A program made the position numbers and the translations under genes. DNA of 64,000 nucleotides from Streptomyces roseus (GTDB taxonomy: Bacteria; Actinomycetota; Actinomycetes; Streptomycetales; Streptomycetaceae): positions 1 through 64,000 of the forward strand of contig NZ_LFML01000127.1 in the NCBI RefSeq assembly GCF_001044425.1, in the 5' to 3' direction. Under the pieces are notes generated by a model. The model was not told the DNA's origin. It made no database searches and worked only from the letters and a program-made list of their open reading frames with translations. Below are positions 6,011 to 37,262 of the stretch, piece by piece (within the stretch, counting starts at the first letter, position 1; every line of letters begins with the position of its first letter).

Positions 6011-7531
6011 TCAGGCCGGCTGTTCCTCCTGCCCGAAGCGGTCCCGCAGTTCGCGCTTGAGGATCTTGCCGCTGGCGTTGCGCGGGAGGGCGTCCACGAA
6101 CAGCACCCGCTTCGGCGCCTTGAAGTGGGCCAGCCTCTCCCGGGCGTACGCCAGCAGCTCCGCCTCCGTGACCTCCCCGCGCGGCACCACGATCGCCGTG
6201 ACCGCCTCGATCCACCGCTCGTCGGGCAGACCCACCACCGCGGCCTCGGCCACTCCCGGGTGGGTGTACAGCGCGTCTTCGACCTGCCGGGAGGCCACCA
6301 GCACGCCGCCCGAGTTGATGACGTCCTTCACCCGGTCGACGACGGTGAAGTACCCCTGCTCGTCCCGCACCGCCAGGTCCCCGGAGCGGAACCAGCCGTC
6401 CCGGAAGGCCTTCTCCGTCGCCTCCGGGTCGTTCCAGTAGCCGAGGCACAGCTGGGGCGAGCGGTACACCACCTCGCCCGCCGTGCCGTCCGGCACGTCC
6501 GCGCCGTCCTCGTCGACGACCTTCGCCTCGACGTGGCGCACGGGCCGCCCGCAGGACTCCATCCGCCCCTCGTGCTCCTCCGGGCCCAGCACGGTGGCCA
6601 GCGGTCCGATCTCGCTCTGGCCGAAGCAGTTGTAGAACCCGAGGCCTGGCAGCCGCCCCCGCAGCCGCTCCAGCACGGGCACCGGCATGATCGAGGCCCC
6701 GTAGTACGCCTTGCGCAGCGCACCCAGTTCGCGGCGCCCGAATTCCGGGTGGTTCGCGAGCCCGATCCACACCGTGGGCGGCGCGAACAGGCTGTCCGCC
6801 CGGCCCGCCTCCACCAGGTCGAAGACCTCCTCGGCGGCCGGGGCGTCCAGGATCGTGTTCCGCGCGCCCACCGCCAGGTACGGCAGCAGGAAGACGTGCA
6901 TCTGCGCCGAGTGGTAGAGCGGCAGCGAGTGCACCGGCCGGTCCGCTTCGGCCAGGTCCAGCGCCTCGATCGCGCTCTCGTACTCGTGCACCAACGCCTG
7001 GTGCGTCATCATCGCGCCCTTGGGCAGGGCGGTGGTACCCGAGGTGTAGAGCAGCTGCGCCAAGGCGCGGGGATCGCGGTCGGCTGCGAAGGGCAGCGGA
7101 TCGGCCAGCTCCGCCAGGAACGAGCCGGGCGCGTCGCGCAGCGGCCGTACGGCATGGCCCTCGGGGATCCGCGCGGCCAGGTCCGGGTCGGCGAGGACCA
7201 GCGCGCTCGTGCAGTCGTCCAGGATGTGCGCGAGGTCCTCGCCGGTCAGGTTCTGGTTGACCGGGACGTGGGTGAGCCCGGCGCGGGCGCAGGCGAGGAA
7301 GGCCAGCAGATAGGCGTCCGAGTTGTGGGCGAAGGTCGCGACCCGGTCGCCGTCGGCCAGCCCGTACCGCTCCCGCAGGACGGCGGCCCCGGTGGAGACG
7401 GCGGCGTCGAGTTCCGCGTACGTCCACGTCCGTTCGCGGTAGGTGACGGCCTGCCGGTCCGGGACGCGCAGCGCGCTGTCGCGCACCAGCCCGTCGACCG
7501 TGTTCCGCCGTACCGCCCGCGCCGCTGTCAT
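6011..7531 (-). CDS. Acyl-CoA synthetase (AMP-binding)
   Basis: A 506-residue acyl-CoA ligase. The P-loop YTSGTTALPKGAMMTH lies near residue 166, the YNCFGQSEIGP block near 290, and the hinge WFRSGDLAVRDEQGYFTVVDRVKD near 383, with the C-terminal NASGKILKRELR catalytic lysine. It differs from the FadD19-like protein and resembles general medium/long-chain or aromatic FadD enzymes. The ATG at 7531 was chosen because the 74 codons upstream in this frame are unconserved-looking and would start far into the promoter. It is convergent with the YihY gene. Substrate unknown. Confidence 0.87.
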   Translation of the reverse strand: MTAARAVRRNTVDGLVRDSALRVPDRQAVTYRERTWTYAELDAAVSTGAAVLRERYGLADGDRVATFAHNSDAYLLAFLACARAGLTHVPVNQNLTGEDLAHILDDCTSALVLADPDLAARIPEGHAVRPLRDAPGSFLAELADPLPFAADRDPRALAQLLYTSGTTALPKGAMMTHQALVHEYESAIEALDLAEADRPVHSLPLYHSAQMHVFLLPYLAVGARNTILDAPAAEEVFDLVEAGRADSLFAPPTVWIGLANHPEFGRRELGALRKAYYGASIMPVPVLERLRGRLPGLGFYNCFGQSEIGPLATVLGPEEHEGRMESCGRPVRHVEAKVVDEDGADVPDGTAGEVVYRSPQLCLGYWNDPEATEKAFRDGWFRSGDLAVRDEQGYFTVVDRVKDVINSGGVLVASRQVEDALYTHPGVAEAAVVGLPDERWIEAVTAIVVPRGEVTEAELLAYARERLAHFKAPKRVLFVDALPRNASGKILKRELRDRFGQEEQPA

Positions 7532-7987
7532 GGCGCGATCCTCGTCGCCGGGCACAGCCGCGGTCAATGACCCGGGCCGGCGGGATACCGAACGGCATGC
7601 ACCGGCTGGTGCCGGGGGGATGGCGGCTCCGGTGCGGCCCCGGACGGCGGTGACACCGGCGGGATCGCGCCCGTCCCCGCCCGCGGGCAGGTGCGCTCCA
7701 TCGCTACTGCCGACGGTCGATGAATGAGCGTCAATTGCCGTGTCTCCCGGCACAGTTCCCTACGGGGTTGTTTCGAATTCCCGTGCCATTTGTGTCGGCG
7801 TGTATCGGGATCTTGTCCTTCCCGTGAAGAGGTGGGCGGCGAATCCGACATGAGCGAACCAACCATCACTTACGCCGCGTGACATGTCCACGGCCGCCTG
7901 AGAGTCTCCCTGCTCATCAAGGCATTCCTCCTTGCAGAGGTGGACGGCGATCCCGTCCAACTCCCCACGACCCTCTGGAGAATCCGC
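7532..7987. other. 456-bp divergent intergenic region
   Basis: This holds the promoters of the acyl-CoA synthetase (minus) and the M4 protease (plus). It is noticeably less GC-rich around 7720-7880 than its surroundings, as expected of a regulated promoter of an extracellular protease. I see no credible small ORF. A weak CAAGG/CCTTG inverted repeat lies near 7919-7936, about 50 bp before the protease start. Confidence 0.5.
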
Positions 7988-9655
7988 ATGTTCTCGATCA
8001 CCACCGCCGGCAGCAGGGCGCGCCGCCTCGCCCTCGTGTCCGGCGCGGCCGTCCTCACCGGCACCCTCCTCGCCGCCGGCACCACCGCCGCTTCGGCGGG
8101 TGCCGTCCCGGCGGCCGCCGAAGCCGGCGCCGCTGCGGCCACCGCGGCCTCGCTCGGCCTCGGCGGCGAGGAGCAGTTGATCGTCAAGGACGTCATCAAG
8201 GACGCCGACGGCACGGTCCACACCCGCTACGAGCGCACGTACGCCGGCCTTCCCGTCCTCGGAGGCGACCTCGTCGTCCACCGCAACGCCGGCGGTGCCG
8301 TCACGTCGGTCACCAAGGCCACCGAGGCCGACATCAAGGTCGCCTCGGTGACCCCGAAGCTGGCCCCGGCCGCCGCCCATTCCGCCGCGGTCCAGGCCGC
8401 CGAAGCCGCGAACACCACCGGCGCCTCCGCCGGCGACTCCCCGCGCAAGGTCATCTGGGCCGCCGACGGCAAGCCCGTCCTCGCCTACGAGACCGTCGTC
8501 ACGGGCGTCCAGCGCGACGGTGTCACCCCGAGCCGACTGCGCGTCATCACCGACGCCGACACCGGCCGGAAACTGCACGAGGCCCAGCTCATCCTCGACA
8601 TAGCCGGCGGCATCACCGCGAAGAGCGGAGCCGCGGCCGCCAAGCCCAGCGCCGCCGCGCCCGCCGCGGTCGGTACCGGCGCCAGCCAGTACAGCGGCAG
8701 CGTCTCCCTCAACACCACCAAGACGTCGTCGGGTTTCTCCCTCGTCGACAGCGTGCGCGGCGGCTCCAGCACCGTCGACCTCAAGCACAAGACGAGCGGC
8801 AACGGCACGGTCTTCACCGACGCGGACAACAAGTGGGGGAACGGCCTGCCCGGCAACAACCAGACGGCCGCCGTGGACGCCGCCTACGGCGCCGCCCAGA
8901 CCTGGGACTTCTACAAGAACGTCCTGCACCGCAACGGCATCAAGAACGACGGGCGGGCTCCGGTCTCCCGGGTCCACTACGGCAGCGCCTACCAGAACGC
9001 TTTCTGGGACGACCAGTCCTTCACCATCACCTACGGCGACGGCGCCGGCAACCAGCACGCCCTGACCCAGCTCGACGTGGCCGGCCACGAGTTCAGCCAC
9101 GGCGTGACCTCGGCCACCGCGGACCTGCAGTACTCCGGTGAGTCCGGCGGCCTGAACGAGGCCACCTCGGACATCTTCGGCACCGCGGTGGAGTGGAACG
9201 CGAACAACGCCCAGGACAAGGGCGACTACCTGCTCGGCGAGAAGATCGACATCTTCGGCAACGGCAAGCCGCTGCGCTACCAGGACAAGCCGAGCAAGGA
9301 CGGCCGGGGCTCGGCCGACTACTGGAGCGCCGGCGTGGGCAACCTCGACGTGCACTACTCCTCCGGCGTCGCCAACCACTTCTTCTACCTGCTGTCCGAG
9401 GGCAGCGGCGCGAAGGACATCAACGGCGTGCACTACGACAGCCCGACCGTGGACGGCTCGACGGTCACCGGTATCGGCCGGGACAAGGCGGTCCAGATCT
9501 GGTACAAGGCGCTGACCGCGTACTTCACGTCCACCACCGACTACCACGGTGCCCGCGAGGCCACCCTGAAGGCAGCGGCCGACCTGTACGGCGCGAACAG
9601 CGCCGAGGCCAAGGCCGTGGCCGCCGCCTGGGCCGGGGTGAACGTCAAGCCCTGA
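7988..9655 (+). CDS. Secreted M4 (thermolysin-like) metalloprotease
   Basis: A 555-residue prepro-metalloprotease. Residues 1-36 form a Sec signal peptide (two arginines, long hydrophobic core, ASA cleavage). An FTP propeptide domain follows (about 50-105), then a PepSY-like pro-region (about 140-200) and the catalytic domain. The zinc site is H367-E368-F-S-H371 with the third ligand E391 in GGLNEATSD; His456 in VHYSSG matches thermolysin's catalytic histidine. It would be autoprocessed outside the cell and release peptides. The ATG at 7988 is preferred over a GTG at 7940 because it begins directly before the signal peptide and has GGAG eight bases upstream. A strong hairpin follows the stop. 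Confidence 0.94.
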   Translation: MFSITTAGSRARRLALVSGAAVLTGTLLAAGTTAASAGAVPAAAEAGAAAATAASLGLGGEEQLIVKDVIKDADGTVHTRYERTYAGLPVLGGDLVVHRNAGGAVTSVTKATEADIKVASVTPKLAPAAAHSAAVQAAEAANTTGASAGDSPRKVIWAADGKPVLAYETVVTGVQRDGVTPSRLRVITDADTGRKLHEAQLILDIAGGITAKSGAAAAKPSAAAPAAVGTGASQYSGSVSLNTTKTSSGFSLVDSVRGGSSTVDLKHKTSGNGTVFTDADNKWGNGLPGNNQTAAVDAAYGAAQTWDFYKNVLHRNGIKNDGRAPVSRVHYGSAYQNAFWDDQSFTITYGDGAGNQHALTQLDVAGHEFSHGVTSATADLQYSGESGGLNEATSDIFGTAVEWNANNAQDKGDYLLGEKIDIFGNGKPLRYQDKPSKDGRGSADYWSAGVGNLDVHYSSGVANHFFYLLSEGSGAKDINGVHYDSPTVDGSTVTGIGRDKAVQIWYKALTAYFTSTTDYHGAREATLKAAADLYGANSAEAKAVAAAWAGVNVKP

Positions 9656-9673
9656 CCCCCGCAGCACGCACGG

Positions 9674-9706
9674 GGCGCCGCACCGAGGTCGAACCGGTGC
9701 GGCGCC
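9674..9706 (+). terminator. Hairpin terminator of the M4 protease gene
   Basis: A perfect 12-bp stem (GGCGCCGCACCG pairing with 9695-9706) with a 9-nt loop begins 18 bp after the protease stop. No U-tract follows, which is common for Streptomyces terminators. Confidence 0.65.
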
Positions 9707-9743
9707 GCCGTGCCCCGCCGGCGCCGTGCCCCACGGCGCCGGG

Positions 9744-9795
9744 CCCGCACCCGCACCCGCACCCGCACCCGCACCCGCACCCGCACCCGCACCCG
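9744..9795. repeat. Hexanucleotide repeat (CCCGCA)8
   Basis: Eight uninterrupted copies of CCCGCA plus CCCG run directly up to the ribosome-binding site (GAGGAG, 9795-9800) of the sulfatase. On the other strand the unit reads TGCGGG. Copy number is likely to vary by slippage and could alter leader folding. Confidence 0.9.
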
Positions 9796-9809
9796 AGGAG
9801 CAGTCCCCC

Positions 9810-12050
9810 ATGCCCAGCCGCCGTACCTTCCTGGCCGCTTCGACCGCCACCCTCGGTCTGACCGCCGGCGCCGCCACCGCCGCCGGGTCGGCACAGGCGG
9901 TGTCCGCGGTGACGGTCCCGGACACGGCGGACGGCTCCGGCGCCCGGCTGCCGAACTTCGTCGTCGTCCTCGCCGACGACCTCGGCTACGGCGAACTCGG
10001 CGCGTACGGGCAGAAACTGATCACCACCCCCCGCCTGGACCGGCTCGCCACCGAGGGGCTCCGCTTCACCGACGCCTACTCCACCGCGGCCGTCTGCGCA
10101 CCCTCCCGCTGCTCCCTGCTGACCGGACTGCACACCGGCCACGCCACGGTCCGCGCCAACCCTTCCTCCGGCGGTCAGGGCTCGCTCACCGCCACCGACA
10201 CCACCTTCGCGCAGGTGCTGCGGGCGCGCGGCTACCGGACCGCCGTGGTCGGCAAGTGGGGCTTCGGACCGGAGGCGGCCGGCCAGGACAGCCATCCGGC
10301 CGCCCGCGGCTTCGAGGAGTTCCACGGCTACATCGACCACACCCACGCCCACGAGTACTACCCCGAGTACCTCTGGCACAACGCGGTCAAGGAGCCCATC
10401 CCCGCCAACGCCGGCGGCGCCAAGGCCGTGTACGCCCCCGACCTCCTCGCACAGCGCGCCCTGGAGTTCATCGACGCCCACGCCGCCGAGCCGTTCCTCC
10501 TCCTGCTCACCCCGAACGTCCCGCACGCGCCCAGCGACATCCCCGACACGACGGCCTACGCCGACCGGAGCTGGACGGCCGCGAACAAGGGGCACGCGGC
10601 CCAGGTGTCCTACTTCGACTCACTGGTCGGCAAGGTGGTCGACCGGCTGCGCTCCCTCGGCCTGGAGCAGGACACCGTCGTCCTCGTCACCAGCGACAAC
10701 GGCCCGCACGAGGAGGGCGGGGTGAACCCCGACCTGTTCGACGCCAACGGTCCGCTGCGCGGCTACAAGCGCAACCTCTACGAAGGCGGCGTACGCGTCC
10801 CTCTCATCGCCTGGGGTCCCGGCCGGGTCCGGCAGGGCACCAGCGACCGCCCCACCCCCCTGACCGACGTCCTGCCCACCCTCGCCGAGCTCGGCGGTGC
10901 CCCCGCCCCCACCGACGTGGACGGGCTCTCCGCCGCTCCCCTGCTCGCCGGCAGCCCCGACTCGGCGCGCCACGGACACCTGTACTGGTTCCGCGACGAG
11001 CTGGGGGTCACCAGCCGGGCCGATGCCCAGGACAACAAGCGCGCGACCTGGCTCGCCGAGGCGGTGCGCCGAGAGAATTGGAAGGCCGTGCGCTTCGCCC
11101 CCGAGCGCGACCACAACCTTCCCGACGACAAGTGGCAGGTGGAGCTGTACGACCTGGCGGCCGATCCCGGCGAGACCCGCAACGTCCTCGACAAGAACCC
11201 CTCCAAGGCCGCGGAACTGGTGGCGCTGATGCGCTCCTCTTGGCGGGACACCTTCGCGCGCACCCCTTTCGGGGCCCGCCTGACCCTGCCCCGCCTGGCC
11301 GTCCCCGGCCAGGCGTTCACCGTGACCGCCACCCTGGACAACGGTTCCGCGCGGCCCTGGACCACCGCGTCGCTCGGCCTGCGCGCCCCGGCCGGATGGA
11401 CCGTGGTCTCCACCTCCCCGACCACGGCGCAGGAGCTCGCCGTCGGCGCCCGGCTCACCGCCTCCTGGCAGGTCACCCCGCCCGCGGACGCTGCCCCCGC
11501 CACCCCTTGGAAGCTCACGGCCGAGGGTAGCGCCCTCACTGCGGCCGGCCCGGTCCGCTACGCGGCGGCGGGCACCGTCCCGACCCCGCCCCCCGCCCCC
11601 ACGCGCGACTCCTACCTTTCCGACCTCACCTGGATCAGTGCCGCCAACGGCTGGGGACCGGTGGAACGCGACGCCTCCAACGGCAAGAACGCCGCCGGTG
11701 ACGGTCCGCTGATCTCCTTCGGCGGTACGACGTATCCCAAGGGTCTGGGCGTCCACGCTCCCAGTGACATCGCCTACCACCTCGGCGGTGCCGCCGTGCG
11801 CTTCACTTCCCTCGTCGGCATCGACGACTTCTCCGCCAGGCAGAGCACCCTCGGCGCCACCCGCGCCAAGGTCTACGGCGACGACCGCCTGATCCTCACC
11901 ACCCCCACTCTCACGGCGGCCACCGGCCCGGTCCCGGTCGACGTGGACGTACGGGGCGTCCGCGTGCTGCGTCTGGTGGTCGAGGACGCCAACAACCGCA
12001 CGTCCTTCGACCACACCTCCTGGGCCCTGGCCCGGGTCACCGTGTCCTGA
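9810..12050 (+). CDS. Exported sulfatase with NPCBM module
   Basis: A 746-residue type I sulfatase. A Tat signal (RRTFLAASTATLGLTAGAA, residues 4-22) is followed by the alkaline-phosphatase-fold domain. The metal-binding LADDLGYGELG lies near residue 55 and the active site is C96-A-P-S-R100, with Cys96 the residue converted to formylglycine. From about residue 490 there is a NEW3-like beta-domain (NPCBM-associated), and residues about 620-746 form an NPCBM carbohydrate-binding domain (WISAANGWGPVERD...KGLGVHA). It is therefore likely to desulfate a polysaccharide outside the cell. The ATG at 9810 (GAGGAG upstream) is chosen over 9726, which would translate the hexanucleotide repeat ahead of the Tat signal. 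The maturation enzyme is encoded next door. Confidence 0.93.
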   Translation: MPSRRTFLAASTATLGLTAGAATAAGSAQAVSAVTVPDTADGSGARLPNFVVVLADDLGYGELGAYGQKLITTPRLDRLATEGLRFTDAYSTAAVCAPSRCSLLTGLHTGHATVRANPSSGGQGSLTATDTTFAQVLRARGYRTAVVGKWGFGPEAAGQDSHPAARGFEEFHGYIDHTHAHEYYPEYLWHNAVKEPIPANAGGAKAVYAPDLLAQRALEFIDAHAAEPFLLLLTPNVPHAPSDIPDTTAYADRSWTAANKGHAAQVSYFDSLVGKVVDRLRSLGLEQDTVVLVTSDNGPHEEGGVNPDLFDANGPLRGYKRNLYEGGVRVPLIAWGPGRVRQGTSDRPTPLTDVLPTLAELGGAPAPTDVDGLSAAPLLAGSPDSARHGHLYWFRDELGVTSRADAQDNKRATWLAEAVRRENWKAVRFAPERDHNLPDDKWQVELYDLAADPGETRNVLDKNPSKAAELVALMRSSWRDTFARTPFGARLTLPRLAVPGQAFTVTATLDNGSARPWTTASLGLRAPAGWTVVSTSPTTAQELAVGARLTASWQVTPPADAAPATPWKLTAEGSALTAAGPVRYAAAGTVPTPPPAPTRDSYLSDLTWISAANGWGPVERDASNGKNAAGDGPLISFGGTTYPKGLGVHAPSDIAYHLGGAAVRFTSLVGIDDFSARQSTLGATRAKVYGDDRLILTTPTLTAATGPVPVDVDVRGVRVLRLVVEDANNRTSFDHTSWALARVTVS

Positions 12051-28635: not shown

Positions 28636-30296
28636 TCACCCGTCGCGCCGGTAGTAGTCCACCGACACCGTCACCGGGCCCTCGGCCGGGGCGGCCGTCA
28701 GCACGGTCATGATCCCGACGTCCCGGCCGTCCTGGCCGCGTACGCAGAAGGCCCGGCCCGCCCGCAGCGTGGTGAAGGGCAGTGCCGTGACGGGCCGGCT
28801 GTCGATGCCCTTGACGCAGTCGGCGAGCCCCCGCCGCCCGGTTGGCATGACGTAGGCGTCACTGCTCTCGGGGACGTAGAACTCGGTGGCGCTCCGGCCG
28901 ACGTACCAGGAGACGGTCTCCCTGCGGGACGACCCGGCCCGCCTTGACGTCGAACTCGTAGCTCTGGTCGGGCGAGGTGAGTTCGGTGCCGGCGCGGACG
29001 GCGGTGTACGCCGGGGCCGCCTCGGACGGGGTCGGGGCCGACGCGGTCGCGGCGGTCGGGGTCGGCGTTGTCGGGGTGGGGGTCCCGGCGACGGCCCCGA
29101 CCCGGTCGGCGGCGCCGTCGTCCCCTCCGCCGTCGGCGTACGGGTCGATCAGCGCGAGGCCCCCGGCGGCGCCGAGCAGCAGGGCGGCGGCGGCCACTGC
29201 CGCCGTACGGCCCCGCCGGCGCCCGGCCTCCGGAGCCCGTCTGCGCCCGCGCGGCCGCAGGTCCGGGGCCGGGCCGGGCGCGGGAACGGGTGCGGCACGC
29301 GGGGCGGTCACCGTGTCCGCCGCGTCGAGGGCGGTGGCGGGCGCGGCGCCCGCGCCGTCGGGCGGCGCCGCGGATGGGTAGGCACCGGCGTGGCGGCGGA
29401 GCTCGGTGGTGACCTGGTGCGGCAGCCAGTCGTCGCCGAAGCGCAGCTCCCCGCCGACCGCGGGGTGGGCGCGTACCGCCTCGATGACCTGGGCCGTGCT
29501 CGGCCGGTGCGCCGGGTCCTTGGCCAGGCAGTGCCACAGCAGCGGCCGCAGCTCGGCCGGGACCGCATCGAGGTCCGCCTCCTCGTGCACCACCCGGTAC
29601 AGGGCCGCGGGCTCGGGGCCCGCGCCGAAGGGCGGCACGCCCCCGGCCACGTACGCGGCGAGCGCACCCAGTGCGAAGACGTCCGTGGCCGGGCCCGCCG
29701 GCCGGCCCAGCGCCTGCTCCGGGGCCATGAAGGCGGGCGTCCCCACGCGCAGTCCGGTGCCGGTCTGCGCGCCGGCGTCCGCGGCGCGCGCGATGCCGAA
29801 GTCGATGACGCGCGGTCCGTCCGCGGCGATCAGGACGTTGGCGGGCTTCAGGTCGCGGTGGACCACGCCCGCCCGGTGGATCTCCTGGAGCGCCTCGGCG
29901 ATGCCGGCGACGAGCAGCAGCACGGTGCGCACGGGCAGCGGGCCGTACGCGTGCACCGCCTGCTGGAGCGAGGGGCCGGGGACGTACGCGGTGGCCAGCC
30001 ACGGGGTGGGGGCGTCGGCGCCCGAGTCGAGGACCTGGGCGGTGAAGAGCCCGTGGATGCGCTGCGCGCTGGCCACCTCCCGGGCGAACCTGCGGCGGAA
30101 CTCGGGGTTCCGCGAGTTCGGGCCGGACCACCTTCAGCGCCACCGGGCGGCCGCCGGGGGTGTGGGCGAGGTAGACGCGACCCATCCCGCCGACGCCGAG
30201 CCGCGCGACCACGCGGTAGCCGCCCACTTCCCGGGGATCGTCTTCGGCGGGCGCCCGGAGGTGACGCGGGGCGGTACCCGGGGGTGGTGTCGTCAT
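28636..30296 (-). pseudogene. Ser/Thr protein kinase gene with two frameshifts
   Basis: The parts of a PknB-like membrane kinase are spread over three frames. The N-terminus from the ATG at 30296 (GGYRVVARLGVGGMGRVYLAH, P-loop, VALKVVRPELA) breaks at about 30110, where one extra G (or two missing bases) shifts the frame. The middle has HRDLKPANVL, DFGIARA and GTPAFMAPEQ, a proline-rich linker and a TM helix (TAAVAAAALLLGAAGGLALI). A second +1 shift at about 28921 leads to the extracellular tail (SWYVGRSATEFYVPE... YYRRDG), ending at 28636. Both shifts fall in short G runs. Either sequencing errors or true decay would explain this; the neighbouring decay favours a real pseudogene. Confidence 0.75.
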
Positions 30297-30378
30297 GGTG
30301 GCTCTCCCGGGGACGGGGACGGGTGACGGGTGATGGATCGGCTGATGTGCGGTCGCCCGAACAGCCTCGGATGCTACC

Positions 30379-30396
30379 TGACTGTAATTTCCGTCA
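30379..30396. promoter_or_regulatory. TetR-type operator, autoregulatory position
   Basis: TGACTGTAATTTCCGTCA matches the 18-bp deiminase operators with three differences and keeps the TGAC/GTCA arms (flanked by C and G, making 6-bp arms). It lies 45 bp upstream of the TetR start and also in the upstream region of the divergent kinase pseudogene. Confidence 0.6.
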
Positions 30397-30441
30397 GGAA
30401 TCGCGTCGTAGGTGTCATGCGCACCCAGGTAGGGTGTCGGC

Positions 30442-31029
30442 GTGGCGGACCGTCGAACAGCAATCATGGAAGGGGCCGCGCGGGTCATCGCCCGACGCGG
30501 CGTGCGCGGCCTGCGCGTGGAGGAGCTCGCCGCCGAGGCGGGCGTGTCCACGGCGTTGATCTACTACCACTTCAAGGACCGCGCCGGAATCCTGCGCGCG
30601 ACCCTGGAGTTCATCAACGACCGGGCCGGACGCTACACCACGGAGCGGGAGCCCGACGCTCCCCCGCTGGACGCCCAGGGCGAGCTGGAGGAGACCCTCC
30701 TCCTCGAATTCCAGGACGGCCCCGAGGTACGGGAGAACAGCACGGCCTGGGGAGAGCTGCGGGCGACGGCCGTCTTCGATCCCGACCTGCGCGAGGACCT
30801 GGCCCGCGCCACGCTCGTCTGGGTACAGGAGGTGGGCGAGTTGCTGGGCCGGGTCCGGCCCATGGCGGGGGCCGCGGCGCTCGCCGGCGCAGCCGAGCGG
30901 CTGACGGCGCTGGTCGAGGGGCTGAGTTCGCGCTGGCTGAGCGGCAGCCTGCCCGTGGCGCACGCGCGCGAGCTGATGAGCACGGCCATCACGGCCGAGC
31001 TGCGGAACCTGGCGCAGCCGGGCGGGTGA
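30442..31029 (+). CDS. TetR-family transcriptional regulator
   Basis: A 195-residue TetR protein. The N-terminal HTH spans residues about 9-53, with RVEELAAEAGVSTALIYYHFKDRAGIL containing the recognition helix TALIYYHF. The C-terminal ligand domain is helical and shows no recognised subfamily. The GTG start follows AGGTAGGG. It stands upstream of deiminase 2 and has a match to the deiminase operators in its own promoter. It is therefore the probable repressor of both intact deiminase genes, with a guanidino compound or polyamine as a plausible effector (inference). A strong terminator hairpin follows its stop. Confidence 0.92.
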   Translation: MADRRTAIMEGAARVIARRGVRGLRVEELAAEAGVSTALIYYHFKDRAGILRATLEFINDRAGRYTTEREPDAPPLDAQGELEETLLLEFQDGPEVRENSTAWGELRATAVFDPDLREDLARATLVWVQEVGELLGRVRPMAGAAALAGAAERLTALVEGLSSRWLSGSLPVAHARELMSTAITAELRNLAQPGG

Positions 31030-31053
31030 GCCGCCCCGCCGTCCGAGCCGTCG

Positions 31054-31077
31054 AGCCCCCGCCTCCGGGCGGGGGCT
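31054..31077 (+). terminator. Hairpin terminator of the TetR gene
   Basis: AGCCCCCGCC-TCCG-GGCGGGGGCT forms a 10-bp stem with a 4-nt loop, followed by TCTGTTC. It separates the TetR transcript from the deiminase 2 promoter. Confidence 0.75.
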
Positions 31078-31095
31078 TCTGTTCGCCCCGCGTCT

Positions 31096-31113
31096 TGACT
31101 GAATTTTCAGTCA
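31096..31113. promoter_or_regulatory. TetR-type operator, deiminase 2 promoter
   Basis: TGACTGAATTTTCAGTCA (flanked by T and A, giving 9-bp arms around a central TT) ends 16 bp before the start of deiminase 2. It differs from the deiminase 1 operator at a single central base. Confidence 0.8.
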
Positions 31114-31129
31114 ATGACAGAGTCGGGCC

Positions 31130-32296
31130 ATGAGCACCTCCCACGACCACAGCCGCTCCCTCCTCAGCCGCCTGTTCGGCTCCGCACAGCCCTCTCGCAG
31201 GCGCGTCCTCGGCGCCGCGGGCCTCGGAGCCGCGGGCGTGGCCCTGGGCTCCGTGGCGGCGGCCCCGCAGCGGGCGAGCGCGGCCACGCCGAGCCGCTGG
31301 GTGGACCGGGACGACGTACCGCACGCCCGTACCTGGATGTCCTGGCCGTCCCGGTCCTCCATCTGGGGCGGCCGGCGCCTGGCCGGGGTACAGCAGGACA
31401 TCGCCCTGATCGCCCGGACCGTCGCCCGCTACGAGCCCGTGGTCCTGTGCGCCCCCGACGCGTACACCGCAGCCGGGGCCAGGTCCCTGTGCGGACCGGG
31501 GGTCACCGTGATCGACTCCATCCCCACGGACGACCTCTGGATGCGGGACATCGCACCGGTCTTCCGCCGTGACGGCCGCGGCGGGCTCGACGCCCTCGGC
31601 CTGGGCTTCAACGGGTGGGGCGGCAAGCAGACGCACGCCTACGACGCCGAGGTCGCCCGGCTCGTCGCCGACGACCTCGGCCTGCGCTTCAGCCGGGCGG
31701 AGTTCGTCGGCGAGGGCGGGGCGATCGAGACCGACGGCGACGGCACCGTCATGGCCACGGAGAGCAGCCTGGTCAACAAGAACCGCAACCGGGGCATGAG
31801 CAGGGCCGAGATCGAGGACGCCGTCCTGCACGCGTACGGCGCGGACAAGATGATCTGGGTCCCCGGCATAGAGGGCGAGGACATCACGGACGACCACATC
31901 GACGTGACCTCGCGCTTCGTGCGCCCGGGTGTGGTGATGGTGCAGGTTCCGCCCGCGGACCGCGACGACGTCTGGGCGCGGGACGCCCGCGAACAGTTCT
32001 CGATCCTCTCCCGCGCCACGGACGCCCGGGGGCGGCGGCTGCGGGTGATCCGGGTGGAGGGCCCCGACACGGTCCGCTCCAAGGACTCCCAGTTCGTGGA
32101 CTCCTACCTCAACTTCCACGTGGTCAACGGAGCCGTCGTCGCGGCCCGGTTCGGTGACGCGGTGAAGGACGCGGCCGCCGTGCGCGCGCTGGCGGAGGCC
32201 TTTCCCGGGCGGGAGATCGTCCAGATCGACGTCGACCGGCTGATGGCGGGCGGCGGCGGGATCCACTGCTCCACGATGCACGAGCCGCTCCCGTAA
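31130..32296 (+). CDS. Exported agmatine/peptidylarginine deiminase 2
   Basis: A 388-residue PAD_porph-family enzyme with a Tat signal ([24 protein letters not shown], about 22-46, cleaved near ASA). Active-site markers are [13 protein letters not shown] (about 137), [12 protein letters not shown] (about 196), [10 protein letters not shown] (about 255) and the nucleophile C380 in GGGGIHC, in register with deiminase 1. It would hydrolyse a guanidino group with release of ammonia, outside the membrane. The TetR gene lies just upstream with its operator at 31096. Downstream is a broken urease gene; urease and such deiminases are both ammonia-liberating. The two paralogues share fold and catalytic residues but differ clearly in sequence, so they are not a recent copy. 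Confidence 0.9.
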
Positions 32297-32326
32297 GACC
32301 TCCGAGCACGGAAAGGGCGAGGCAGT

Positions 32327-32767
32327 ATGCGACTGACACCGACCGAGCGGGACCGGCTGCTGATCTTCACCGCGGCGGAACCGGCCCGCGCCCGGCGCCG
32401 CCGGGGTGTGAAGCTCAACGTCCCCGAAGCGACCGCGCTCATCACGGACACCGTGTGCGAGGCGGCCCGGGACGGCCGCCGCCTCGCGGAGGCGATCGAG
32501 GCCGGGCGCGGTGTCCTCGATGCCGACGAGGTGCTGCCCGGCGTACCCGACGTGGTCACGGGCCTCCAGGTCGAGGCGGTGTTCGACGACGGGACGCGCC
32601 TGTGCGTCATCGACGACCCGTTCCGGCAGCGGGGTTCACTCGGCCTCGCCGCCCCCGGCGCGACCCTGCCCGGGGGCGGCGAGGGCTGCCGGGCCGCGGA
32701 ACCGACGCTGCGCGTGCCGGTGCGCAACACCGCGACCGTGCCGATCAGCGTCTCCTCCCATTTCCAC
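32327..32767 (+). pseudogene. Urease gamma-beta fusion, truncated
   Basis: The first about 147 codons encode a urease gamma subunit ([18 protein letters not shown], with [21 protein letters not shown] and VLPGVPDVV) fused, as usual in Streptomyces, to the start of the beta subunit (GATLPGGG... [23 protein letters not shown]). The sequence then stops matching urease in the conserved SHFHF motif and continues as the C-terminal part of an ABC ATPase in another frame. The rest of the beta subunit and the catalytic alpha subunit (ureC) are absent from the window. This is a deletion product; no urease can be made here. Confidence 0.85.
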
Positions 32768-33090
32768 TCGCGGTGGAGCCCGCGGTCCTGGTGCTCGACG
32801 AGGCGGTGGCCGCGCTGGACGTCTCCGTACAGGCGCAGATCCTGAACCTGCTCGCCGACATCCGCGAACGGACGGGCATCGGCTACCTGTTCATCACGCA
32901 CGACCTCGGGGTCGTGCGCTGCGTGACCGACGACGTCGTCGTCATGCGGCACGGCCGGATCGTCGAGGCGGGCCCGACCGCGCGGGTCCTGGCCTCGCCG
33001 GAGCATCCGTACACCCGGCTGCTGCTGGAGTCGGTGCCCCGGCCGGGCTGGGATCCGCGGGGCATCGCGGCGGCGCGCCGGGCGTTGTGA
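32768..33090 (+). pseudogene. Peptide-type ABC transporter ATPase, C-terminal fragment
   Basis: About 108 codons of a dipeptide/oligopeptide importer ATPase (DppF/OppF type) lacking Walker A and the LSGGQ signature. What remains is the Walker B strand [24 protein letters not shown] (given as key residues LVLDE; the usual proline after DE is alanine), the H-loop [10 protein letters not shown] and the tail [12 protein letters not shown]. It joins the truncated urease gene at about 32767 and ends at a TGA at 33088-33090. No permease or binding-protein genes remain next to it. Confidence 0.85.
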
Positions 33091-33100
33091 GGAGCCCGGT

Positions 33101-33511
33101 TCAGGGGTGGCGGCGTACGGCGGGCCCGGCGAGGCCCGCGACGAGGATGCGCACGGTCGCCTCCGGGTCGACTGCGGGGTCCAGGGACCGGAGCGCGGCG
33201 AGTCCGTCGGCGGCGGCCAGGGCCGTGCCCGGCGGGACGGGGTCGAAGGCCCCGGCGTGCTCGTCCGCCGGCACCTGGAACAGCCGTACGAAACACTGCC
33301 GCCGGCGCCGGTAGTCCCCGTCGACCGCGGCCCGGACCCGGTCGTCGTTCAGCGCGAACCAGTGGAGGGCGGAGTGCAGGCGTGAGAGGTCCTGGTCCTC
33401 GGGCTGCGTGAGGAGTCCGATCACGCGCTCGGCACGCTCGGCGAAGGAGCCGGGGCCGTCGACCGCGGCTTCCATCGGGCCGACCCACTCGGGGGCGATG
33501 TCCTCGACCAC
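33101..33511 (-). pseudogene. TetR-family regulator, C-terminal ligand domain only
   Basis: From about 33511 leftwards the minus strand encodes VVEDIAPEWVGPMEAA... LHWFALNDDRVRAAVDGDYRRRR..., the C-terminal effector domain of a TetR protein, ending at 33101. The codons before that (to 33583) are low-complexity and carry no HTH. The matching HTH half lies immediately to the right on the opposite strand (33516-33656), as expected if one part of the gene was inverted. Confidence 0.65.
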
Positions 33512-33515
33512 GCGC

Positions 33516-33656
33516 GCGCGGCGGGTCGCCGCCGCCCGCACCCTGCTCGCAGGCGAGGGTTTCGCCCGCTTCAGCACCTGCAACGTCAGCGCGCTCTGCG
33601 GGATCTCGCACGGAATGTGCCACTACCACTATCCACCCCTGGCCGATCGGAGAACG
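33516..33656 (+). pseudogene. TetR HTH remnant, inverted relative to its C-terminal half
   Basis: The plus strand encodes RVAAARTLLAGEGFARFSTCNVSALCGISHGMCHYHY by position, a recognisable TetR DNA-binding segment (GFARFST...VSALCGISHGMCHYHY). No start or continuation is present; it runs directly into the ribosome site of the deiminase pseudogene. With the domain at 33101-33511 it makes one dismembered regulator gene. Confidence 0.6.
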
Positions 33657-33659
33657 GTG

Positions 33660-34384
33660 ATGAACGATCACGCTGCACCCAAGGCCCCTTCCCCCGGCAG
33701 AGCGCCGCGACGGACCCTGGACCGGCGCGGCTTCCTGACCGCGGCGGGCCTCGCGGCGGCGGGCGGCGAGGCCTTCGCGGCCGCTCGCCCCTCGGCACGG
33801 CCTGCGGCATCCGGCGGCTTCGCCGTCCCGCTCGACCCGGTCCGGCACACCCGTACATGGATGGCCTGGCCCGACGGCTCGGCCATCTGGGGACGGCAAC
33901 TGGCGGGCGTTCAGGCCGACATCGCGCTCATCGCCAGGACCGTCGCCGCGTACGAGCCGGTGGTCGTCTGCGCCAACCCGGCGAGCGTCTCGAAGGCGAA
34001 GAGAGCCTGCGGGTCGGACGTCACGGTGATCGGCTCGATCCCCGTCGACGACTGCTGGATGCGCGACAGCGGGCCGGTGTTCCGTACGAACGGCGCGGGC
34101 CGACTCGACGCGGTCGGGCTGGGCTTCAACGGCTGGGGCAACCAGCAGACCCATGCGAAGGACGCCCTGGTCGCCTCGCGGATCGCGGCCTACGCCGGGG
34201 TCCCGTTCACCACCGCGTCCTTCGCGGGCGAGGGCGGCGCGGTGGAGACCGACGGTGCGGGACGCCAAGTCCACCCTCCAGCGGCTCTTTCCGGGGCGCA
34301 CGGTCGAGCAGCTCGACATCGACCGCCTCGGCGGGGGCGGCGGCGGGCATCCACTGCGTGACCCAGCAACAGCCCGTGCCGTAA
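33660..34384 (+). pseudogene. Agmatine/peptidylarginine deiminase 3, internally deleted
   Basis: A third paralogue starts at the ATG at 33660 (GGAGAACG upstream) with a Tat signal (LDRRGFLTAAGLAAAGGEAF) and continues through DDCWMRDSGPVF and GEGGAVETDG, then jumps at about 34258 to the C-terminal RDAKSTLQRLFPGRTVEQLDIDRL in another frame. About 130 residues, including the DxH block, are missing. A further shift in a GGC run near 34340 precedes the last GIHCVTQQQPVP with the nucleophile cysteine. It cannot encode an active enzyme. Its promoter has no copy of the TetR operator. Confidence 0.88.
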
Positions 34385-34405
34385 CCCCGTCCAGGGCACG
34401 AGCCC

Positions 34406-34438
34406 GGGTGCCCCGGTCAAGAAATCACCGGGGCACCC
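34406..34438 (+). terminator. Hairpin after the deiminase 3 pseudogene
   Basis: A perfect 12-bp stem (GGGTGCCCCGGT, 34406-34417, with 34427-34438) and a 9-nt A-rich loop lie 22 bp beyond the stop of the broken deiminase. It is a conserved-looking terminator that outlived its gene. Confidence 0.7.
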
Positions 34439-34508
34439 CGCGGTGGGGCGCCGCACCGCGGCGACAAATCCACCTGCCGTCCCGCGCACCCCTTGTCATA
34501 CTGCTCCG

Positions 34509-35459
34509 ATGATCAACCTGCCTGCCGCCGCACTGGACTCGCTGTCCGGGCTCGCCTTCGGTGACGCCTTCGGGGACCGCTGGTTCGGGATCCTGCGGCG
34601 CGAGGGTCCGCAGGCGCTGGAGTCACGGATCCCGCCCCCGGAGCCGCTGTGGCGGTGGAGCGACGACACCGCTCAGGCGGTCGTCCTCGTACGGGAACTC
34701 GCCGAGGGCCGCGGCGCCGTCGACCAGGACCGCCTCGCCCTGCGCCTCGCCGAGGCCTACGCCGGCGACACCCACCGCGGCTACGGAGCCTCGATGCACG
34801 ACGTGCTGCGCCGCATCGGCGCCGGCGAGCCCTGGCGGGAGGTGGTCGCCGGGCAGTTCGGGGGCCAGGGCTCCTGGGGCAACGGCGCGGCCATGCGCGT
34901 CGCCCCGCTCGGCGCCTGGCTCGCCGCCGACCTCGACGCCGTCGCCGAGCAGGCCGCCGCGCAGAGCGCGGTCTCGCACCACCACCCGGAAGCCGTCACC
35001 GGGGCCGTCGCGGTCGCCGTGGCCGCGGCACTGGCCGTCCGCAGCCGCGGCGGGGCCGCCCCGGCGCGACCGGAGTTCCTCGGGGCGGTCGCCGAGCGGC
35101 TCCCCGAGAGCGATGTCCGGTCCGGGGTGCGGATCGCCGCCCGGATGCGCCCGCACACCTCGGTCCGCCACGCCGCGCAGGTGCTGGGCTCCGGCTACCG
35201 GATGTCGGGGCCCGACACCGTCCCGTACGCCCTGTGGTGCGCGGCGGGGCACCTCGACGACCTGCGGGAGGGGCTGTGGCGTACCGTCGCCGGCCGCGGC
35301 GACATCGACACCACCTGCGCCATCGCGGGCGGGGTGATCGCCGCCCGCACGGGCGTCACCGGCCTCCCGCCCGCCTGGCGCGCCGCCCGCGAGCCCCTGC
35401 CCCCGGACATCCCGGAGCGGGAACCCGCCACGGGGCCGGCCGGCCTCCCGGGCGCGTAG
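34509..35459 (+). CDS. ADP-ribosylglycohydrolase family protein
   Basis: A 316-residue all-helical DraG-family protein. The binuclear metal site is represented by LAFGDAFGDRWF (near 14), WSDDTAQAVVLVREL (near 49; family WTDDT), GSWGNGAAMRVAPLG (near 121) and GRGDIDTTCAIAGGVIAARTG (near 262; family GGDTDT). It would remove ADP-ribose from a protein or small molecule in the cytoplasm. Start ATG 34509 fits the beginning of family homology. No ADP-ribosyltransferase gene is seen nearby. Confidence 0.88.
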   Translation: MINLPAAALDSLSGLAFGDAFGDRWFGILRREGPQALESRIPPPEPLWRWSDDTAQAVVLVRELAEGRGAVDQDRLALRLAEAYAGDTHRGYGASMHDVLRRIGAGEPWREVVAGQFGGQGSWGNGAAMRVAPLGAWLAADLDAVAEQAAAQSAVSHHHPEAVTGAVAVAVAAALAVRSRGGAAPARPEFLGAVAERLPESDVRSGVRIAARMRPHTSVRHAAQVLGSGYRMSGPDTVPYALWCAAGHLDDLREGLWRTVAGRGDIDTTCAIAGGVIAARTGVTGLPPAWRAAREPLPPDIPEREPATGPAGLPGA

Positions 35460-35523
35460 GCCTGCGCCCCGGGGAGCCCGCGGTGCATTGCCCTTCATCC
35501 GGCGGGTGATGACCGCCTGCGCA

Positions 35524-36255
35524 TCACCACGGCACCACGCCGGCGTCGTCGAAGAACGCGCCGGTCGGGCCGTCGTCGGGCAGGGTCGCCAGTTCGACGG
35601 CGATCGCCGCGCCCTGTTCGGGGGTGCGCACGCCCCGGAAGCCGTTGAGGTCGGTCGCGACGTAGCCGGGACAGGCGGCGTTGATCAGGATGTTCGTGCC
35701 GCTCAGCTCCAGGGCGTACTGGAGGGTGACGGCGTTCAGGAACGTCTTCGACGGCGCGTACGCCGCGGCCACCAGACCCGTCGTCCGCTCGGCATCGGCT
35801 CCCGACTGCCGGGCGAGGGAGCCGACGCTGCTGGACATGTTCACGATCCGCGGCGAGGCGGAGCGGCGCAGCAGCGGCAACATCGCGTTGGTGACGCGGA
35901 TGACGCCGATCACGTTGGTCTCCACGACCGTCCGGATGACGGCGGGACCGACCCGGGTGGGGTCCTGCGGCATGGCGCCGGTGATGGCGGCGTTGTTGAC
36001 GAGCACGTCGAGGCGCCCGGCCCGCTCCTCGACCAACCGTGCGGCGGCGGTGGCGCTCGCGTCGTCGGTCACGTCCAGCGGTACGCCGAACGCGTCGGCG
36101 CCGGCCGCGCGCAGTGCGTCCACCGCGGCCTCACGGCGCCGATCGTCGCGGGCGCCGACGCCGACGCTCCAGCCGAGGGCTCCCAGCCCCGCGGCGATCT
36201 CGTAGCCGATTCCCTTGTTCGCGCCGGTGACCAGCGCAATCGTCCGTTCGCTCAT
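35524..36255 (-). CDS. SDR-family oxidoreductase
   Basis: A 243-residue classical short-chain dehydrogenase. The cofactor loop is TGANKGIGYE (about 9-18), NNAA lies near 87, the catalytic serine is in MSSSVGS near 138 and the YAPSK motif (Tyr/Lys) near 160. It resembles NADPH carbonyl reductases. The ATG at 36255 is preferred; the longer frame upstream enters the divergent promoter. It is divergent from a LysR gene, which probably controls it. Confidence 0.9.
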   Translation of the reverse strand: MSERTIALVTGANKGIGYEIAAGLGALGWSVGVGARDDRRREAAVDALRAAGADAFGVPLDVTDDASATAAARLVEERAGRLDVLVNNAAITGAMPQDPTRVGPAVIRTVVETNVIGVIRVTNAMLPLLRRSASPRIVNMSSSVGSLARQSGADAERTTGLVAAAYAPSKTFLNAVTLQYALELSGTNILINAACPGYVATDLNGFRGVRTPEQGAAIAVELATLPDDGPTGAFFDDAGVVPW

Positions 36256-36293
36256 GGGGACGATGCTGCCCCGGGGACCGGTGGCGGGTCCAA

Positions 36294-36328
36294 CACCCAT
36301 CGGGTGGGCAGCGATACCGTCAGGGTAT
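36294..36328. promoter_or_regulatory. Two inverted repeats in SDR/LysR intergenic region
   Basis: CACCC-ATC-GGGTG (36294-36306) and ATACC-GTCAG-GGTAT (36314-36328) lie in the 95-bp divergent gap. The second includes the T-N11-A form of LysR-family boxes (TACCGTCAGGGTA), so it is the likely LysR site. Confidence 0.5.
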
Positions 36329-36350
36329 GGATCTGGAGTAGCGTGGCCGC

Positions 36351-37202
36351 ATGGAGACGCGGGAACTGCGGTATTTCGTCGCCGTCGCCGAAGAGCTGCA
36401 CTTCGGGCGCGCCGCGCAGCGGCTCGGGATCGCGCAGCCGCCGCTGTCCCGGGCGATCCGGCAACTCGAACGCCGGCTCAAGGCGGTGTTGCTGGATCGG
36501 ACCAGCCGCACGGTCACGCTGACCGAGGCCGGCCGTGTGCTGTTGGTCGAGGGCCGGGCGGCCCTCGACGCGGTCGACGCCGCGGAGCGCCGCACCCGCC
36601 GCGCCGCCCTTTCCGCGACCGGCCGTCCCGGCCTGGTCCTGGTGACGAAGGCCAGCGCGTCCACGGAGCTGCTGGCGAAGCTGCTCGACGCGTACGCCGC
36701 CGAACCCGACGCGGTCCCCGTCGAGGTCATCCTGAGCGGCCCGGCCGAGCAGCGGCGCCTGCTGTGCGAGGGCCGGGCCGACGTGGCGCTGCTGCACCGG
36801 CCGTTCGACTCGGCGGCCGGCTTCCACACCGAAGAGCTCACAACGGAGGGCCAGGTCGTGGTCCTGCCGGCCGGGCATCCGCTCGCCGCCCGGGCCCATG
36901 TGCACATGGCGGACATCACCGGGCTGCCCGGCCTGCCCCTGCCCCGCTGGCCCGACCCCGACGGCACCTACCCGCCCGGCCCGGGCCCGCAGGTCCGCGA
37001 TTTCGCCCAGTTGTTGCAGCTCGTCGCGCTCGGCCGTGCTTGCGCGGTCTCCCCGGAGTCGTGCCGGGCCCAACTGCACGGCGACCTCGCCGCCGTGCCC
37101 GTGCTGGACGCGCCGACCGTCACCACCGTGATCGCCTGGCCGCCGCACAGCCGGTCCAGAGCCGTAGCCGACCTCGTCCGGACCGCGACACGTCTCTCGT
37201 AG
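36351..37202 (+). CDS. LysR-family transcriptional regulator
   Basis: A 283-residue LysR protein. The N-terminal winged HTH is METRELRYFVAVAEELHFGRAAQRL (by position, residues 1-25) with IAQPPLSRAIRQLERRL as recognition helix, followed by the two-lobed effector domain from about residue 90. It is divergent from the SDR gene and probably controls it. Convergent with the acyl-CoA dehydrogenase. Effector unknown. Confidence 0.92.
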   Translation: METRELRYFVAVAEELHFGRAAQRLGIAQPPLSRAIRQLERRLKAVLLDRTSRTVTLTEAGRVLLVEGRAALDAVDAAERRTRRAALSATGRPGLVLVTKASASTELLAKLLDAYAAEPDAVPVEVILSGPAEQRRLLCEGRADVALLHRPFDSAAGFHTEELTTEGQVVVLPAGHPLAARAHVHMADITGLPGLPLPRWPDPDGTYPPGPGPQVRDFAQLLQLVALGRACAVSPESCRAQLHGDLAAVPVLDAPTVTTVIAWPPHSRSRAVADLVRTATRLS

Positions 37203-37262
37203 TCCCCACATCGAACGCCGGGCCGGGCAGGAGTGACGGTGACGTCGTCGGCCGCACGGTCC

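Follow-up and report, generated by a model that had tools for sequence, protein, structure and literature searches.

Genes SCO5525-5526 of Streptomyces coelicolor have been described as urea-utilising ureABC genes and SCO5527 as a homologue from the arginine decarboxylase pathway (PMC3293853). Streptomyces clusters that consist of ure(AB)C only have also been described (PMC2492869), and ure(AB)C genes have been counted towards ureolysis (PMC5489568). SCO5526-SCO5524 are given to nrdABS in a further paper (PMC4991794), in conflict with the first two of these sources (PMC3293853 and PMC2492869), an assignment that we take for a slip. The enzymes AguA and AguB have been described (PMC9397018), and circularisation and end-to-end fusion of Streptomyces chromosomes by illegitimate recombination are documented (PMC5124664). 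A pairing of deiminase and urease genes was described in no title or abstract opening of the literature searched. Here we report on a locus in the window (the whole 64,000-nucleotide stretch of DNA that was analysed) at which the start of a fused urease gamma/beta gene (ureAB) runs into the end of a peptide transporter ATPase gene. This arrangement is most probably (at about 0.93) the scar of a lineage-specific deletion of about 8.9 kb that passed through two shared bases and left two dead genes joined.

The junction was preceded on the same strand by two intact genes: (i) TetR-1 (30442-31029, forward), a TetR-family regulator named by its likeness to the G133 gene and collinear with G133 at 91%; and (ii) deim-1 (31130-32296, forward), a member of the agmatine/peptidylarginine deiminase family (PF04371, E 9.2e-96) with a twin-arginine-like start as read by eye. 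The first-pass annotation had read the urease beta motif SHFH as passing directly into the Walker B region of a Dpp/Opp ATPase at about 32767, and this was borne out by profile matches on both sides of a join at 32767/32768. Positions 32327-32767 (forward) were found to hold the first 147 codons of ureAB, which has 233 codons in G133, while positions 32769-33090 (forward) hold the last 106 codons of a Dpp/Opp-type ATPase gene (ATP2) with its stop codon at 33088-33090. The SHFH codons end at 32767, and an 11-residue stretch containing the Walker B motif starts at 32770. When scored against NF009671 (bifunctional urease gamma/beta), the open reading frame at 32327-32845 was matched through residues 1-147 only (E 1.9e-53, profile positions 1-150 of 231), with 181.2 bits falling below the curated cut-off of 243 compared with 310.9 bits for the gene in G133. 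The frame ending at 33090 was matched by the late part only of PRK11308 (dipeptide ABC ATPase; E 5.7e-33, profile positions 176-267 of 334). In nucleotide alignments of 442 bp, the ureAB remnant was 81.9% identical to G082 and 81.2% identical to G073, and both remnants aligned to G133, in which the intact ATP2 orthologue (L045:7267-8070) encodes 267 amino acids. Side-by-side alignment with G133 revealed that the two halves share 2 bp (CT) at the deletion junction (J1, 32767-32768).

The first-pass description of a fused gene holds for the DNA and fails for the protein. The urease and ATPase halves are in different frames and no single open frame passes through both; the urease frame continues for 25 nonsense codons past the junction to a stop at 32845, and the ATPase remnant has no start codon of its own. 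Thus, no chimeric protein is encoded, and the two broken genes are fused at the DNA level only. Both are dead, with UreB deprived of most of its domain and the ATPase of its start and first 60%, the part within which the Walker A and signature motifs of this fold lie. That the open reading frame at 32327-32845 has become a functional new gene is scarcely credible; although it stays open for 172 codons downstream of an intact deiminase gene, its tail is read in a different frame from the ATPase and has no family match, most of UreB is missing, and the junction occurs in no other genome among the matches listed.

The closest genome among the matches listed, G133 (about 91% identical), was found to carry ureAB and the ATPase gene whole, in the same order and orientation and 8,929 bp apart. 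G133 is collinear with window positions 30250-32768 (91%) and resumes from 32767 (89%), with the 8,929 bp in between absent from the window; against a 202-bp query centred on the junction, its ATPase half matched at 93% and its urease half at 86% on one strand. The missing segment spans the rest of ureAB, ureC, a TetR gene, a deiminase gene, the genes of a substrate-binding protein (SBP) and two permeases (the latter named by eye), one ATPase gene, and the first part of the second. These data support the deletion of several kilobases between a urease operon and a peptide importer that the first-pass annotation had proposed, and extend it by a TetR gene and a further deiminase. Twelve other genomes, picked as best matches and therefore giving no frequency for the genus, were mapped by keeping matches that covered at least 25-35% of the query and removing weaker overlapping ones. 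The run ureAB-ureC-deiminase-SBP-permease-permease-ATPase-ATPase-deiminase was unbroken in eight of these (G133, G082, G073, G004, G074, G256, G306, and G298), was split over two loci in one (G012), and had no ureAB-ureC in the stretch read in three (G161, G288, and G277). The deiminase locus was likewise proposed to have once sat beside ureC and a peptide transporter, and all three are present as one run in G133 and the seven other contiguous genomes. In these eight relatives both junction halves fall within intact genes, located on a single contig and strand and separated by 8.2-9.8 kb. When window positions 32100-33120 were compared with 101 genomes of the genus (own genome included), the relatives' matches typically ended at 32768 on the urease side and began at 32767 on the ATPase side. 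Since the breakpoints fall inside genes that are whole in other genomes, the deletion is the derived state. Elsewhere in the sample, at about 7061-10078 of the G277 locus (L056), deim-1 and TetR2 have no ureAB-ureC between them, an indication that the cluster has lost this part more than once.

Examination of the DNA 3′ of the junction revealed that J1 is one of several lesions, with three others located within 1.6 kb of position 32767. A truncated TetR gene (TetR-3) is represented by its 3′ part (33101-33512, reverse), whose collinearity with the G133 TetR gene (L045:6595-7251) begins at L045:6840. A 126-bp piece of the same gene (33510-33635, forward) is inverted relative to G133 and flanked by losses of 24 bp and 242 bp; its orientation was opposite to that of its surroundings in comparison with each of the four loci that gave a DNA match (G133, G161, G004, and G298). 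This inversion with its small flanking losses was seen at none of the other loci read. The deiminase remnant deim-3 (33660-34386, forward), identified by its alignment to G133 and a PF04371 match over profile positions 7-142 of 321 only, belongs to an aligned stretch (33631-34386) that has lost 427 bp internally near 34269-34276 and gained 1 bp (a frameshift) in the 3′ piece. About 420-480 bp are present at this deletion site in all 12 other genomes. The cluster is decaying, since the adjacent TetR and deiminase genes are broken as well, and the event at J1 is ordinary genome decay. Further downstream, positions 34387-37260 (about 2.9 kb) contain ADP-ribosylglycohydrolase-like, SDR-like, and LysR-like open reading frames (named by eye) that had no match in G133 at that place, where the flanks are only about 70 bp apart; this difference represents either an insertion in the window or a deletion in G133.

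The proximity of these lesions raises the alternative that the 8.9-kb deletion, the 126-bp inversion, and the 427-bp deletion all arose in a single complex rearrangement, by template switching at a collapsed fork. Such an event would fit the presence of four breakpoints in a stretch of about 1.5 kb, the overlaps of 2, 3, 5, and 8 bases between the aligned pieces (the first confirmed base by base), and the small losses flanking the inversion. However, step-by-step decay of a purposeless cluster predicts the same picture, the separate 1-bp insertion suggests at least one independent lesion, and, among the matches listed, no genome carried only some of the lesions, which would have allowed them to be ordered. 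We therefore regard a single event as a serious but minority reading. In the scenario that we prefer, the ancestral gene order would have been the one still found in G133, TetR-deiminase-ureAB-ureC-TetR-deiminase-SBP-permease-permease-ATPase-ATPase-TetR-deiminase. Through a break or a replication slip, codon 147 of ureAB would then have been joined to about codon 161 of the ATPase gene via the 2 bp, with the removal of about 8.9 kb, and TetR-3 and deim-3 would have been broken later or in the same complex event, an order of lesions that we infer. End joining is the probable mechanism of the join, and a homologue of the Ku gene is present in the genome, which indicates that this route is available. 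The loss may have been tolerated because the genome still has a canonical urease as well as a paralogous ureAB-ureC-deiminase trio.

The junction was examined for its occurrence in other genomes and the missing segment for its presence elsewhere in the same assembly. All 392 genomes of the genus (own genome included) matched some part of the 202-bp query, and among the matches listed only the own genome spanned all 202 bp; in the 391 others, with two candidates scored per genome, the matches covered one half and none crossed the junction. A junction scan of the genome_contigs collection, which may omit the own genome or very close relatives, returned one match, in a Clostridia MAG, that is attributed to chance because its 8 kb contain no gene of the cluster. 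The own assembly is a draft of 7.83 Mb in 162 contigs at 99.91% completeness. Among the matches listed (40 of 1345 first-look candidates scored), the G133 segment had no orthologue-level match elsewhere in this assembly: the best was the ureAB-ureC paralogue on C94 (83% over 2,018 bp), and the remaining listed matches longer than 83 bp were all at 77% or less, with shorter ones reaching 92%. A misjoin of two contig ends with the 8.9-kb segment dropped is hence very unlikely as the origin of the junction. The draft state of the assembly with its 162 contigs and the lack of relaxed selection in the remnants would be compatible with such an artefact, but the 2 bp shared by the ends are in our judgement too few to cause an assembler to misjoin them, a segment that had been dropped or misplaced should normally show up on another contig of so complete an assembly and is not found there among the matches listed, and three more lesions lie within 1.6 kb.

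The dN/dS ratios relative to G133 were 0.15 for the ureAB remnant and 0.10 for the ATPase remnant, compared with 0.11 for the intact TetR-1 and 0.25 for deim-1. Relaxed selection was set aside as a test against assembly error, as the ratios of the two remnants are no higher than those of the intact neighbours and do not discriminate. The 5′ remnant of deim-3 gave 0.26, and of its polarised amino-acid changes 12 fell on the window branch and 5 on the G133 branch; the TetR-3 remnant gave 0.52 over 133 codons without an outgroup. The decay of the cluster looks recent from these low ratios, which offer no independent proof of lost constraint.

A complete-looking canonical urease was found elsewhere in the genome, on C114, where ureC adjoins separate ureA- and ureB-like genes as well as ureF, ureG, and ureD-like genes (UreF assigned by profile, the others by eye or likeness); this locus contains the only UreF match in the own genome. 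On C94 (L054:5925-9446), a ureAB-ureC-deiminase trio lies between ilvE-like and cimA-like genes and its UreC is without the flap cysteine; a TetR-like gene also follows the C94 deiminase, the gene names at this locus being recognised by eye. Judged by gene order, the C94 trio probably corresponds to the SCO5525-SCO5527 locus of S. coelicolor. The UreC of the G133 cluster is 88% identical to that of C94 and 47% to canonical UreC, indicating that the lost urease-like genes have a close paralogue. In 20 genomes selected from ureAB matches and mapped under the coverage filter given above, the C94-type locus had ureAB, ureC, and deiminase in this order on one strand without exception (20/20); the ilvE-like and cimA-like flanks were both present in 13, only one of them was seen in the other 7, and 12 genomes had an NCS1-type permease. 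Four deiminase-family loci were detected in the own genome, three of them in the window, including the broken one.

Deiminase genes also accompany the window-type locus, being located downstream of ureC in all nine genomes with ureAB-ureC and separated from it by an opposed TetR gene in five of the nine. The UreC proteins of both types (9 window-type, 20 C94-type, and the own C94 protein) were compared at the active site. All 30 keep the metal-ligand motifs HxH, the K in FKxHED, HxDxLNE, GGGH, and SSD (that of L086 in a second aligned piece), and all 30 are without the flap cysteine, with V or A before the flap (catalytic) histidine. The GGGTGPAEG-type active-site loop is four residues shorter in these proteins, and SSDSQAMGR is replaced by SSDAQGMGR. 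The G133 cluster UreC scored 622 bits against the urease alpha equivalog TIGR01792, below the curated cut-off of 680, and 725.7 bits against the broader subfamily PRK13207, above the cut-off of 354. The three deiminases tested were all below the agmatine deiminase cut-off; deim-1 scored 223.6 bits against TIGR03380 (agmatine deiminase AguA; cut-off 381.8) and falls within the PF04371 superfamily.

We tentatively propose, as a rather doubtful reading of these sequence features, that ureAB-ureC at these loci is not a urease and might instead be a ureido-hydrolase acting with the adjacent deiminase on an imported guanidino compound. The deiminase would convert the imported guanidino compound to a substituted urea and ammonia, after which the urease-like enzyme, with its short loop and no flap cysteine, would take the part of AguB and cleave the substituted urea to CO2, ammonia, and an amine. 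At the window-type cluster, the peptide-type importer would bring in the substrate, a module lost in this genome. A two-step use of guanidino compounds, by deimination and then cleavage of the substituted urea, is suggested by the kept metal motifs, the missing cysteine, the scores below cut-off, and the deiminase neighbourhood, and is coherent but unproven. Ureases without the flap cysteine are reported to keep some activity, which counts against the proposal. A search of the own genome for AguB gave a best score of 259.7 bits against a cut-off of 410.25; this match is a plausible relative, which likewise speaks against the proposal, and the absence of AguB was rejected as an argument for it.

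The linkage was further examined in a phylum sample, in which 24 of 119 genomes had a urease-alpha match at a cut-off of E 1e-100. These accounted for 26 urease-alpha loci (two from the own genome), 18 with the flap cysteine and 8 without. With linkage scored within about 1.5 kb on each side (less at some contig ends), a deiminase was found near none of the 18 loci with the cysteine and near two of the eight without (own C94 and G398). Two of the three genus members in the sample (G013 and G056) had a canonical-type match only, and the cysteine-less type is thus not universal in the genus. Six of the eight cysteine-less loci form a distant phylum group (family f12, L115-L120), which has fused ureAB, a UreC that mostly reads IVHEGNP, and a much shorter UreC loop. 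No UreF/G/D-like match was found in the f12 stretches read, which were mapped under the same coverage filter; in the larger stretches read a deiminase adjoined one of the six, and three of the six genomes had no match to the deiminase family. Deiminase linkage as a strict rule for cysteine-less urease homologues was consequently rejected, as f12 counts against it outside the genus. The f12 group and the genus members with the canonical type only also weigh against the proposed two-step pathway.

Overall, the decay scar is ordinary, but the ancestral state can be read from relatives, and the scar serves as a pointer to a conserved neighbourhood in which, at each of two paralogous loci, a guanidino-deiminase accompanies a cysteine-less urease homologue. 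Substituted ureas formed by the deiminase may be the substrates of the adjacent UreC, and predictions of ureolysis for Streptomyces would need correction if ure(AB)C act on another substrate. In relation to known systems, the junction resembles Streptomyces deletion pseudogenes ascribed to illegitimate recombination or end joining, with breakpoints inside genes and minimal shared sequence; nothing in the mechanism is distinctive, whereas the clustered lesions and the 126-bp inversion are in our judgement somewhat unusual. The own C94 trio of ureAB, ureC, and deiminase is like SCO5525-SCO5527 of S. coelicolor with its ure(AB)C and agmatine-deiminase homologue, while the window cluster, a second and now broken copy paralogous to it, differs in also comprising a peptide-type ABC importer and additional deiminases. 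Compared with the canonical ureABCFGD operon, the gamma, beta, and alpha subunits and the metal-ligand motifs of UreC are kept, whereas gamma and beta form one fused subunit, none of the 30 proteins has the flap cysteine, and the active-site loop is shortened by four residues.
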